DNA of 64,000 bases from Desulfosediminicola flagellatus (GTDB lineage: Bacteria; Desulfobacterota; Desulfobulbia; Desulfobulbales; Desulfocapsaceae). Where the stretch lies: positions 1,442,001 to 1,506,000 of the forward strand of contig NZ_CP050698.1 of assembly GCF_005116655.2 (NCBI RefSeq). Direction: 5' to 3'. Made by a program: the position numbers and the translations under genes. Each line of letters starts with the position of its first letter. Position 1 is the first letter of the stretch. Positions 35,095 to 39,792 of the stretch are shown in pieces. The notes beneath the pieces were generated by a model. It ran no database searches. It had not been told where the DNA came from and saw only the letters and a list, made by a program, of their open reading frames with translations.

Positions 35095-36360
35095 TTAACC
35101 GAAAATACCTTTTAATGTAAAGAAGAACAGCATGGCCATAAGGGCACCTGCAGGCAGTGTTACCAACCATGAAATTATGATATTGAAGACAACACGGAGA
35201 TCAAGTGCGCCGACACCTCTGGCGAGGCCAACACCAAGGACCGAGCCTACAAGAATATGAGTTGTTGATACGGGTAATCCTGTTCTGGAGGCTAAAACTA
35301 CAGTTGTAGCAGCAGCAAGCTCAGCACAGAATCCACGAGATGGTGTGAGTTCAGTAATCTTCTTACCAACAGTGAGCATTACTCTGTAACCGAGAGTGAT
35401 GAGACCAAGAACGATACCGCCACCACCGAGAAGCAGAATCCATATTGGAAGTTCTGATTCCTGCATTACTTCACCGCCGGAAGATACGATACTGACAACT
35501 GCAGCCAGAGGACCGATACCGTTTGCCACATCATTTGAGCCATGGGCAAAAGCCATCGCACACGCAGTAAAGAGCATCATTGGTGTGAAAACCTTCTCAA
35601 CGCTGGCAAAGTGAAATTCACGATTTGCCCCTATATCTTCTTTAATATTTCGGATAAAGAACCATCCGAGGCCGGCTGTTGCCAGGCCGATTAGAAAAGC
35701 GACAGCGAAACTCTGACCAGAAGAGAGATCAATACTCAGGTGTTTAAGTCCTTTAAATAAGGTGACAAGAGAAATAACAAAACCAACAAGAAAAATGTAG
35801 GCCGGGGCATATTTCTTTGCATTTCTGAGTGGGTGATCTGTGTCAAATATCAGTTTTCTAGTACTCATCACGAGTAGAAAAGCAATAGTTCCACCAACCA
35901 TTGGGGAGATGACCCAGCTGGCGACTACGCTACCAACTTTGCTCCATTTGACGGCATCTGGCCCAATGCCGACAAGGGCAAAACCAATAAGCGCACCAAC
36001 AATAGAATGTGTAGTGGATACCGGCCATCCTTTGGTGGATGCTATCATCAACCAACAGGCTGCGGCAAGCAGCGCTGCTAACATACCATATACAAGAATT
36101 TCAGGGTTGTTTACGATGGCGGATGGGTCAATAATACCTTTACGAATTGTCTTCGTAACATGACCACCAGCTAAAACAGCTCCGAGAAATTCGAAGATAA
36201 TGGCAATACAAATAGCCTGCTTAACTGTTACCGCGCCTGCACCAACCGAGGTACCCATTGCATTGGCAAGATCGTTAGCGCCAATACCCCAGGTCATATA
36301 TAAACCAAAAATAACCGCCAGAATTACTAATGCGGTTCCATAAGTTGCGATGATTTCCAT
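35095..36360 (-). CDS. pit: PiT-family low-affinity phosphate transporter
   Basis: An inner-membrane H+- or Na+-coupled phosphate permease, 421 residues with about ten transmembrane helices. The duplicated family signature is seen twice: GANDLANAMGTSVGAGAVT near residue 27 and HGSNDVANGIGP near 275. PVSTTHSIVG and PVSTTHILVG also mark the repeat. It is 9 bp downstream of the DUF47 gene, forming the usual two-gene unit. GGGGAGAAA precedes the ATG. Substrate could also be sulfate or another anion in this superfamily. Confidence 0.93.
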   Translation of the reverse strand: MEIIATYGTALVILAVIFGLYMTWGIGANDLANAMGTSVGAGAVTVKQAICIAIIFEFLGAVLAGGHVTKTIRKGIIDPSAIVNNPEILVYGMLAALLAAACWLMIASTKGWPVSTTHSIVGALIGFALVGIGPDAVKWSKVGSVVASWVISPMVGGTIAFLLVMSTRKLIFDTDHPLRNAKKYAPAYIFLVGFVISLVTLFKGLKHLSIDLSSGQSFAVAFLIGLATAGLGWFFIRNIKEDIGANREFHFASVEKVFTPMMLFTACAMAFAHGSNDVANGIGPLAAVVSIVSSGGEVMQESELPIWILLLGGGGIVLGLITLGYRVMLTVGKKITELTPSRGFCAELAAATTVVLASRTGLPVSTTHILVGSVLGVGLARGVGALDLRVVFNIIISWLVTLPAGALMAMLFFFTLKGIFG

Positions 36361-36369
36361 TTTCTCCCC

Positions 36370-37056
36370 TTACTTGGACAGGAAAAGCAATAAGCGGTCA
36401 GCCATGTTCTCTGACTGGTCGGAAATATTTCCGAGTAACTCTAAAATCTTGTACCAGAACATAACTGAAACAGGATCAAGCTCAGATTCGATACTAAAGA
36501 GTGCACGACGTGCTCGATGCAGAATGGTGTCGATGTTATGCTCACTGCGACGTACACCGGCGATCATCGCATTTACTTTGTCGAATTCACGGCCTCCAAA
36601 TCCAACCTCGAGCAGCTCATCAAGTTGCTCGATCATGTCTTTGGCATCAGAGGTGATTTCCATTGTGCCTTCGAGCAGTTCATCAAGTAACGCCTTGATC
36701 CCTTCAGGCACATCCATGTCGCGAAAAGAGACAATCTGGCTGATTGATTCAGCGGTATCTGCTATCGAATCCTGATCACTTATGAGGCCAAGTAAATCTT
36801 TTCTGTCTACCGGCATGAGAAGTGAAGTTGGCATATTGAGTCGAAACGTCGATTTTACTTTATCTGCGGCGGTTTCAAGTTCATCAATCTGCTTGGAGAG
36901 TTCCTTGATCTGTTGCTGGTCCTTGACATAAAGGGCATCAAACAGTGGTGGAACAAGGCAGATACAAGAGAAAACAATACGCATGTGTTCCTGTATCGGC
37001 TTGAAAGGTGAGCGTCGGAACAGGCCCGACAAAGGGGTGGTTGATCGAATAGGCAT
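36370..37056 (-). CDS. DUF47 / PhoU-like Pit accessory protein
   Basis: A helical cytoplasmic protein of about 228 residues related to PhoU and usually encoded beside pit. It probably regulates or gates the transporter. ATG at 37056 is preferred because MPIRSTTPLSGLFRRSPFKP fits the family N-terminus and AGAGG lies 9 bases upstream; the frame is open farther upstream. It forms a coupled pair with pit. Confidence 0.88.
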   Translation of the reverse strand: MPIRSTTPLSGLFRRSPFKPIQEHMRIVFSCICLVPPLFDALYVKDQQQIKELSKQIDELETAADKVKSTFRLNMPTSLLMPVDRKDLLGLISDQDSIADTAESISQIVSFRDMDVPEGIKALLDELLEGTMEITSDAKDMIEQLDELLEVGFGGREFDKVNAMIAGVRRSEHNIDTILHRARRALFSIESELDPVSVMFWYKILELLGNISDQSENMADRLLLFLSK

Positions 37057-37493
37057 GATCATTAACCTCTTTTTTAAAAGTGTTTTGCCAAATGGCTCGT
37101 TGCAAATAAGCGACACGAATCGCTACGACAATGTTCTCTATGTTAAGAACACATTAAAAATCGGATAACTTAACCTGAAGTGGTCTTAAATGCCACCTGA
37201 ATTGTCAACGTTTATTTACACTGAAATGTCTGTAAAACAACGGCTTAACCTTGTCCTAATGAAACTCTAACATAAATTTAATATATGGCAAAATGCCTGG
37301 TTTGAACTTCACCTTTTCTGCAGTCCGGCTGAAGAGAAGGTGATATATTAAGGTTTTGCCTTGGCGGATCATAGCCGGGATGTACTCGTGTAAAATGATA
37401 TCGCTATGATGGCATGATATCAAGAACTGAAATTTCGGTAGGTGACGAATTGTCGTTGGTGATTTGGAGAAGGTGTTTGGATAACACTGTCTA
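37057..37493. other. Non-coding gap upstream of pit operon
   Basis: No convincing ORF or recognised RNA family. It probably contains the promoter and any phosphate-responsive site of the pit operon on the minus strand, but I cannot identify a clear Pho box. Repeat copy F follows. Confidence 0.4.
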
Positions 37494-37672
37494 AAAGGCT
37501 GTCAGAAATTGGCATTTCTGTGGAATTTTCCCTTATCTGCCAAACTCTTCAAAAATTTTTTAAGAATAATGATCGCAGGTAAACGAAGACTCCGATATCA
37601 AAAGTATGGGAGTACGTATTTTCTGAAAATGTCTCGATCTTGAGCAAAACACCTATTCCGGGCCAACCTTCT
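37494..37672. repeat. Miniature inverted-repeat element, copy F
   Basis: Left end AAGGCTGTCAGAAATTGGCA; the right end on the minus strand begins AGAAGGTTGGCCCGGAATAG. The interior AATAATGATCGCAGGTAAACG plus AAGACTCC is nearly identical to copy A. GTCTCGATCTTGAGC matches the consensus right part. This is the longest and most diverged copy, lying just downstream of the kinase-FHA-phosphatase gene. Confidence 0.6.
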
Positions 37673-37713
37673 GGGAACTAATCTGAGAATAGTGATTTGT
37701 ATATAAGCACCCT

Positions 37714-39792
37714 TTATTCGAGATCATTAATAAGTTTTGTAAGAGGTTCTGCTGGATAACTGAGTGGTATGAGATCGTCTTTAATTTGTTGCAGGATGGT
37801 TGCTCCTTCCTGGTGAGCACTGAAAATAATGTGATGATTTTTGATGGTCCCTACATTTTTCCATATAGATCCAAACGGATCGAGAGGCGTGTGGCCAACG
37901 ACAAATGGTACTCCTTTGGGCATATCCAGCGTTTTTCTGAATCGTTTTATATCGCTTTTATTATATCCGCTTAAGTAGTGAGGGCGCTGGAGACGATTTT
38001 TGGTTATTTCGTGTTGCAGGATTGGATTATTTGCTATGTTGATAAGGTCATCAAGGGTGGCATCGGATCGCGGTGGCGCAGCATGGCAGGCGTAAAAGTA
38101 TGGAGATTTTATTATATATGGGAGTTTTGAATAGTATGTTTCCATCTCGTCTACATACTCCTGCCCCCGAAGTTCACGAAGCCGCTCCTTCATCAGGATC
38201 CCCTGAGATATACCGTTTTTAGATATATCTGCAGAGAAGCTGTCGTGGTTTCCTCTGAGATAAAAGAAATTTTCAGGAAATCGAAGTTTGAGTGTGAAGA
38301 TAAGATCCATCATCAGGATCGAACTATCCATATCTTCCATTTCTTCAAGAATCTCAGAGTGAATGGCATCGCCTAATAGCACAAGTGTTGCAGATTTACT
38401 GCGCAGGCATCCGATGAGGCAATTCTCACTAAGAATTTTCAACAAGTTATCGACCTGAGCGTGCAGGTCTCCGACAATGACAGGAACAGCGCGTTGCTGA
38501 AGGTCGACAATTCCTCCGGCTTTTCCTTCAGAGGTCAATGGACGCATTGGCTCTGCATCCATGAGTTCATTCACCTTACGGATACGGTCCAGTGCAATAT
38601 CAGGCGGGAGTAACGTGATGGATCCGCCAAAGAGTTGCCGCAGGGATATAAATGCTTTGTAGCGATTAGCCTGAACACGCTCACGATAATCAAGGTTATC
38701 AAAACGGACAAGCTTCACTCCGATTTCCTCTTCGAGTGGGGTGATGGTGAGATCACCACGGCTATTAGTTATTGCAACATGTCGTTTTGCTACTTTTTTG
38801 GAAAATCGAAGAATGTCGTCATACTCTTTGTTTGAGCGACCAAGAATTACAGTTTCTCCATTTTTAATTCGTACAAATCCAGATGGTGCCATAGTTGAAC
38901 AGGCAAGAGGAGTATTAATTATCCAGTTCTTCTTCATCTCCTTTCGCTTAATGCCAAGAGGGAGTTCTGGATGAAAGCAAAGTCGCTGATCACCAAGGAG
39001 CATTTCAAAGGTTTTGCCATCATGAGCAATGCGATTGACACCTGTAATTCGCTGAACATCATGGGTAATTGTGAACCAGTTGCTTTGACGCAACCCGAAA
39101 ATCTCCTTCCAGCCGGAAATGTTTTTTAAACTAGGGCGTGGAGGCTTTTTGGTAATCGCCCACCTCGGGACAGCTGCAACACCTTTCTCGGCAATGCGCA
39201 TAGGTGGCCCATCCAGACCTTTACGAATATAGACGTTAATTCCGGCCCTATGCATATAGAGCGCCATCTCCTGATAAGCAAGATTCTGTTTGTTCACCAT
39301 TTCGATGGTCAAATCAGAATCTACAGGGAAATACCCCTGAATCTGCCGTGCCTTTCTTCGCTCATAAATAACTTCAGGATCTGGCAATAGAAATTCGAAA
39401 ATATATCGGTTGATATAATTTGTACGAAAGATGCTGTCGCCACCCGGTGGAATCCTTACCCTTGAAAGTTCAAGGGGAGGAGGAGGTGAAATATCAAGCC
39501 ATTCTTTGTCAAAAACTGTAAAAGCTTCTTTATATCCCTTAAACGGCATGCCGAGGTGTACTTCACGCGGTCTGTAAATAAGGGATTGATCCCGCCACCA
39601 TCCCTTACGGGTGAGGTCGATATAGCCTTCATTCGGCCAGCCTCTGATCTGGTTTATATAATATGATTTTCCTGCACCCGGGGGGCCTGTGACAACAAGC
39701 TGAAGGTACTCGAGGCCAATCGGCATAGCAATGCCGCGTATTTCCTGAATGTCCTTGATGGGGACAAGTATTTTTTTTAGTAAATCTTCCAT
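37714..39792 (-). CDS. P-loop kinase - FHA - metallophosphatase fusion
   Basis: A 692-residue cytoplasmic protein with three apparent modules. Residues 30-215: P-loop kinase-like domain with Walker A GPPGAGKS (35-42) and a possible lid RRKARQIQG (145-153). Residues 305-365: FHA-like phosphothreonine-binding domain (ILGRS, KRHVAITNS). Residues 435-660: calcineurin-type phosphoesterase with GDLHA, GDAIHSE, GNHD, ACHAAP and VGHTP, all metal-ligand motifs. Animal PNKP also joins FHA, phosphatase and kinase but with a HAD phosphatase; bacterial Pnkp has kinase plus calcineurin phosphatase plus ligase. This order is different. It may act on nucleic acid ends or on phosphoproteins. No ligase or RNA-repair partner is adjacent. 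Confidence 0.75.
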   Translation of the reverse strand: MEDLLKKILVPIKDIQEIRGIAMPIGLEYLQLVVTGPPGAGKSYYINQIRGWPNEGYIDLTRKGWWRDQSLIYRPREVHLGMPFKGYKEAFTVFDKEWLDISPPPPLELSRVRIPPGGDSIFRTNYINRYIFEFLLPDPEVIYERRKARQIQGYFPVDSDLTIEMVNKQNLAYQEMALYMHRAGINVYIRKGLDGPPMRIAEKGVAAVPRWAITKKPPRPSLKNISGWKEIFGLRQSNWFTITHDVQRITGVNRIAHDGKTFEMLLGDQRLCFHPELPLGIKRKEMKKNWIINTPLACSTMAPSGFVRIKNGETVILGRSNKEYDDILRFSKKVAKRHVAITNSRGDLTITPLEEEIGVKLVRFDNLDYRERVQANRYKAFISLRQLFGGSITLLPPDIALDRIRKVNELMDAEPMRPLTSEGKAGGIVDLQQRAVPVIVGDLHAQVDNLLKILSENCLIGCLRSKSATLVLLGDAIHSEILEEMEDMDSSILMMDLIFTLKLRFPENFFYLRGNHDSFSADISKNGISQGILMKERLRELRGQEYVDEMETYYSKLPYIIKSPYFYACHAAPPRSDATLDDLINIANNPILQHEITKNRLQRPHYLSGYNKSDIKRFRKTLDMPKGVPFVVGHTPLDPFGSIWKNVGTIKNHHIIFSAHQEGATILQQIKDDLIPLSYPAEPLTKLINDLE

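Follow-up and report, generated by a model that had tools for sequence, protein, structure and literature searches.

Genes at the locus

Within the window, a stretch of 64,000 nucleotides from the Desulfosediminicola flagellatus genome, positions 37714-39792 hold an uninterrupted open reading frame on the minus strand that begins with ATG and encodes a protein of 692 amino acids. This is a real gene, present as a single copy in its own 6.75-Mb genome, and it is followed by the genes for a putative regulator and a transporter. The features of the locus, with the evidence that identifies them, are as follows.

37714-39792, minus strand: gene for a 692-residue protein with P-loop kinase-like, FHA-like and PPP-type phosphatase parts (open reading frame; orthologs in 84 of 258 genomes of the order)
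39193-39708, minus strand: P-loop kinase-like domain, residues ~29-200, with Walker A at 36-43, D59, D95, R146 and R149 (conserved motifs and fold matches)
38677-39072, minus strand: degenerate FHA-like domain, residues ~241-372, with GR at 318-319 and RH at 337-338 (hhalign, Pfam below cut-off, beta-rich model)
37717-38676, minus strand: PPP-type metallophosphatase domain, residues ~373-692, with the PPP N-terminal helices (Pfam Metallophos, VIA, invariant ligands)
36370-37056, minus strand: DUF47 / TIGR00153 (PitR-like) regulator, directly downstream (PF01865, E 1.4e-50; TIGR00153 above cut-off)
35095-36360, minus strand: Pit-family (PHO4) phosphate transporter with GANDLANA and GSNDVANG motifs (PF01384, E 1.1e-121)

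The transporter has an aspartate in each of its two GANDVANA-type motifs, the residue that marks phosphate as opposed to CysP-type sulfate transport in the passages of PMC5840216 cited here, and because both phosphate-type aspartates are kept a sulfate-transport reading was set aside. Both NCBIfam models score below their cut-offs on this protein, CysP at 130 bits (cut-off 400) and PitA at 96 bits (cut-off 800). DUF47 proteins of the PitR type are described, in the cited passages of PMC13170248, as regulating phosphate homeostasis together with a cognate Pit transporter. The two downstream genes form such a Pit-PitR pair, whose regulator is PhoU-like; no enzymatic partner of the kind encoded here is described in the cited passages of PMC13170248 and PMC5840216.

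The initial annotation saw no obvious repair-operon context around the gene. Its conserved neighbours are indeed not repair genes, but a conserved context of another kind is present: 66 of the 76 testable genes have a co-oriented DUF47 gene directly downstream, at distances of 35-672 bp, and at almost every one of the 22 loci inspected a Pit gene comes next after it. Contig ends cut the gene in five of the ten exceptions (G206, G030, G233, G018 and G234), and in two others DUF47 is on another contig (G093 and G205). The gene is not strictly dependent on the DUF47-Pit pair, since two genomes (G016 and G120) carry it intact without a close DUF47 and Pit, and another (G229) has kept it with Pit and without DUF47. 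Co-transcription is not assured, because the gaps measure 200-670 bp in many genomes.

The gap between the gene and DUF47 in the window (37057-37713) is the longest seen, at about 0.66 kb, the median elsewhere being about 0.23 kb; no structured RNA was found at Rfam gathering thresholds between 30 and 48 kb, a region that includes this gap. A minus-strand gene for a 91-residue RRM RNA-binding protein (PF00076, 34564-34839) follows the Pit gene. On the other side, an MGMT-type gene (PF01035, 39910-40434) is divergently transcribed and adjoins the reading frame; it is the sole repair-like neighbour, and is found at 5 of the 22 loci.

Domains of the 692-residue protein

The three parts of the protein were compared in an alignment of 31 orthologs, in which mean column identity is highest in the kinase part (74%), followed by the phosphatase (66%) and the middle (60%), and in an AlphaFold model built on the ortholog alignment (pLDDT 80.5). 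The order of kinase, FHA-like and calcineurin-like parts that had been proposed from the sequence is broadly right, although the FHA-like part is degenerate and the kinase subfamily is tied. Of the profiles that the initial annotation named, Metallophos lies above its cut-off, whereas AAA_33 and FHA fall below theirs.

The Walker A motif noted near the N-terminus is confirmed as GPPGAGKS at residues 36-43, and is conserved in the 31 orthologs with its G and K invariant and its last position S or T. K42 and D59, the latter being the acidic residue after strand 2, are invariant, as in P-loop NTP-dependent kinases, and D95 is kept in 30 of 31. The kinase assignment had been made to hinge on a catalytic aspartate and lid arginines, and D59 and the candidate lid arginines R146 and R149 are conserved in 31/31. 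In structural comparisons the modelled domain matches nucleoside and nucleotide kinases with VIA Z scores of about 8 (rmsd 3.6-4.5 over 120-137 residues); YorR, deoxyadenosine kinase, an archaeal adenylate kinase and a bacterial polynucleotide kinase tie at the top, PPK2 and zeta toxin lie slightly below this tier, and the best Foldseek match is an adenylate kinase (E 1.9e-3). Pfam AAA_33 matches only 1 of 24 orthologs (E 0.2), with profile similarity limited to the P-loop, and a PDB profile search with the kinase slice returned nothing significant. On the evidence of the model, the N-terminus is P-loop kinase-like, with no single subfamily favoured by the tied folds. A guanylate-kinase-like reading of 'RPRE..LG' was discarded as a visual resemblance only.

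For the middle segment, the FHA-like motif set that had been described survives only in part. The GR...RH pattern is retained (G318 in 31/31 orthologs, R319 in 27/31, R337 and H338 each in 29/31), whereas the serine of SxxH is kept in 3/31, with Ala or Gly in most, and SxNGT is missing. Pfam FHA (PF00498) does not match the window protein and reaches 4 of 24 orthologs below cut-off (best E 0.007). An hhalign comparison of the middle segment with 30 local FHA domains from relatives aligned on GR...RH with a score of 24.7, which was equalled by 1 of 300 column shuffles and is thus above chance. The segment is beta-rich in the AlphaFold model; FHA chains are not visible in the whole-protein fold-search lists, which are filled by the other two domains, and a PDB profile search with the FHA-like slice gave nothing significant. 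Sequence support for an FHA relationship is weak but above chance, and the domain, which judged from the alignment has lost most of the phosphopeptide-binding residues, should be regarded as FHA-like and degenerate, without phosphothreonine binding being assumed.

The C-terminal domain is the sole Pfam match in the window protein (Metallophos, E 3.5e-7, above cut-off). The complete set of calcineurin-type metal motifs that had been reported is present as GDLHA, GDAIHSE (also GDAVHSE), GNHD, CHAAPP and VGHTP, and the bimetal ligands D442, H444, D475, N515, H570 and H634 are all invariant in the 31 orthologs, as is H516. Residues 383-687 of the model align with PP5 at VIA Z 26.0 (rmsd 3.0 over 266 residues), and the likeness to PPP Ser/Thr phosphatases such as PP5, PP1 and PPZ1 extends through the fold (Z ~25-26), the N-terminal helices and the metal ligands. 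It is set apart from these enzymes by 14-21% identity, by GNHD in place of GNHE, and by GDAVHSE in place of GDxVDRG, such that the signature arginine is an invariant serine (Ser479) in the 31 orthologs; because of this replacement the phosphatase chemistry may be altered.

Distribution and transfer with the DUF47-Pit pair

The orthologs in 84 of 258 genomes, a count that takes in a few fragments at contig ends, are confined to Desulfocapsaceae (f1, the host family) and a second family of the order, f12; nearly all are full length, with identities of ~50-77%. In the rest of a 395-genome sample of the phylum no full-length ortholog was found outside these two families, the matches there being weak and limited to one domain, phosphatase or P-loop. 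The expectation that homologues with intact motifs would be conserved in Desulfobacterota is borne out for the enzyme motifs across the order, in its two families, and the FHA-like motifs are not intact. Two orthologs (G197:C74:17280-19351 and G179:C148:28645-30716) are each split into two adjacent open frames, with breaks near residues 420 and 204 respectively, reflecting either a frameshift or an assembly error. The protein has no match in phage, plasmid and viral collections at the sensitivity used, and an origin as a defence or mobile element was rejected on this result and on the lack of a PADLOC hit. No paper naming the kinase, FHA-like and phosphatase architecture was found in a literature search.

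The gene and a particular type of DUF47-Pit pair occur together. Among 243 genomes of the class, 72 have the gene with the close DUF47, nine the gene only, two the close DUF47 only and 160 neither, so that the close DUF47 type is found in 72 of 81 genomes with the gene versus 2 of 162 without it; the genomes are related, and a Fisher value for this co-occurrence is therefore not a clean probability. Genomes without the gene commonly have a divergent DUF47-Pit pair (~28-33% and 45-50% identical, respectively) with no such gene upstream. The coupling also holds between sister species inside genera g29 and g37: those with the gene have the close pair (Pit 84-88% identical), and those lacking the gene have either a divergent Pit (~36-49%) or no Pit. 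One genome (G193) has the close pair and lacks the gene. In another, G012, a divergent DUF47-Pit pair (L113:6311-8299) stands in the slot taken up in relatives by the three-gene cassette, between glutamate-synthase genes on one side and PBP1 and MutL on the other, and the gene is absent; this is a case of cassette replacement.

The phylogenies point in the same direction. The f12 genera g37 and g29 nest within the f1 genus g1 in the gene tree (100/100), and the DUF47 tree agrees (98/99), the Pit tree being unresolved at this node. The gene tree also places another f12 group as sister of the f1 genus g7 (99/96), and here both the DUF47 tree (85/82) and the Pit tree (100/96) are compatible. The simplest interpretation is that a cassette comprising at least the gene and DUF47 was transferred between families.

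Possible roles of the kinase-phosphatase

The best reading of a kinase-phosphatase that is retained, exchanged and transferred along with one particular Pit-PitR pair is that it is the enzymatic partner of that pair. We propose, with a probability of about one half, that the protein combines two activities as a signalling or regulatory enzyme and belongs to one cassette with the PitR-like (DUF47) regulator and the Pit transporter. This proposal draws on the computed three-part architecture, the invariant catalytic-type residues of both enzyme domains, the gene order, the co-occurrence and the joint transfer. The P-loop domain would transfer a phosphate of an NTP to a protein or a small molecule, and the PPP-type domain would remove the phosphate so added, plausibly constituting a reversible phosphorylation or messenger switch, with the FHA-like domain acting as a scaffold or docking module and not as a classical phosphothreonine reader. 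The balance of the two activities would be coupled to the influx of phosphate through Pit, PitR serving as a partner or a target, and would tune phosphate uptake or the response of the cell to it.

More tentatively, the protein could be a third, enzymatic component of Pit-PitR systems, in which a kinase and a phosphatase on a single chain write and erase a signal of phosphate status, either a nucleotide messenger or phosphorylation of PitR or Pit. Pit and PitR are generally depicted as a system of two proteins, and little is understood of the way in which they report phosphate status; were this possibility true, the protein would represent, in bacteria, a counterpart of bifunctional kinase/phosphatase switches, travelling as a cassette with a transporter. 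Conserved and co-transferred in one of the major groups of sulfur bacteria in sediments, the kinase-phosphatase offers a candidate for the missing signal that can be tested, and its substrate should be findable by biochemistry.

The main rival, which we nevertheless consider unlikely, is that the protein functions in polyphosphate or dinucleoside polyphosphate metabolism, the P-loop domain making or using polyphosphate or NTP and the PPP-type domain hydrolysing it, thereby storing or releasing the phosphate imported by Pit. Polyphosphatases and Ap4A hydrolases are among the enzymes with PPP-type folds, the gene has a phosphate-transport context, PPK2 is among the fold matches of the kinase domain (Z 6.6, up to 166 residues aligned), and the host family is rich in true PPK2 genes (in 23 of the 25 f1 genomes searched). 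However, PPK2 presence tracks the family and not the 692-residue gene, and the four PF03976 matches in the host's own genome do not include the locus at 37714-39792, where profile similarity does not extend beyond the P-loop; membership in PPK2 was rejected for want of a profile match, despite the place of PPK2 among the tied folds.

A still less probable account holds that the gene is linked to the transporter genes by historical hitch-hiking, its product serving an unrelated housekeeping function. In favour of this account, two species have the gene but no transporter pair, and in one genome the pair occurs although the gene is absent, but the coupling within genera, the replacement at the slot without the gene and the joint transfer between families all argue against it.

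The least probable is PNKP-like end healing, with the kinase and phosphatase acting at the 5' and 3' termini of broken RNA or DNA, which would suit the Z of 7.6 for the clostridial polynucleotide kinase 4gp7, the 17 residues from Lys42 to Asp59 (presumably the spacing in that kinase) and GNHD and GHTP motifs that we take to resemble those of the bacterial Pnkp phosphatase, but which is possible without specific support, given that adenylate, deoxynucleoside and other kinases score equally, conserved repair neighbours are lacking (the MGMT gene adjoining at few loci) and the cassette is linked to Pit. The initial annotation had favoured a rearranged or intermediate PNKP in DNA or RNA end repair, and this is not supported. 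Bacterial Pnkp (kinase, PPP-type phosphatase and ligase; TIGR04075) likewise joins a P-loop kinase-type N-terminus to a calcineurin-like phosphatase in one chain, but the window protein has an FHA-like part between them, lacks the PPP signature arginine and ends with the phosphatase, no ligase or adenylyltransferase domain being found by Pfam in 24 orthologs; TIGR04075 does not match at the locus, its only hit in the genome being elsewhere and below cut-off, and the neighbours are phosphate-transporter and not RNA-repair genes. Eukaryotic PNKP (FHA, HAD phosphatase and kinase) shares kinase-like, FHA-like and phosphatase parts, but in another order, with a phosphatase of HAD and not Metallophos/PPP type, and the FHA-like part here is degenerate. 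Membership in PNKP was thus rejected on the HAD, ligase and family-model tests; under the looser alternative, the protein may be a phosphoprotein enzyme. Control of phosphate uptake is more likely than DNA or RNA repair, because the gene is kept and passed on with one phosphate-transporter pair.

The PPK2 genes of the host family are an observation in their own right: f1 genomes have up to four matches each, and the other families of the order gave only two weak hits, which suggests a polyphosphate signature at the level of the family.
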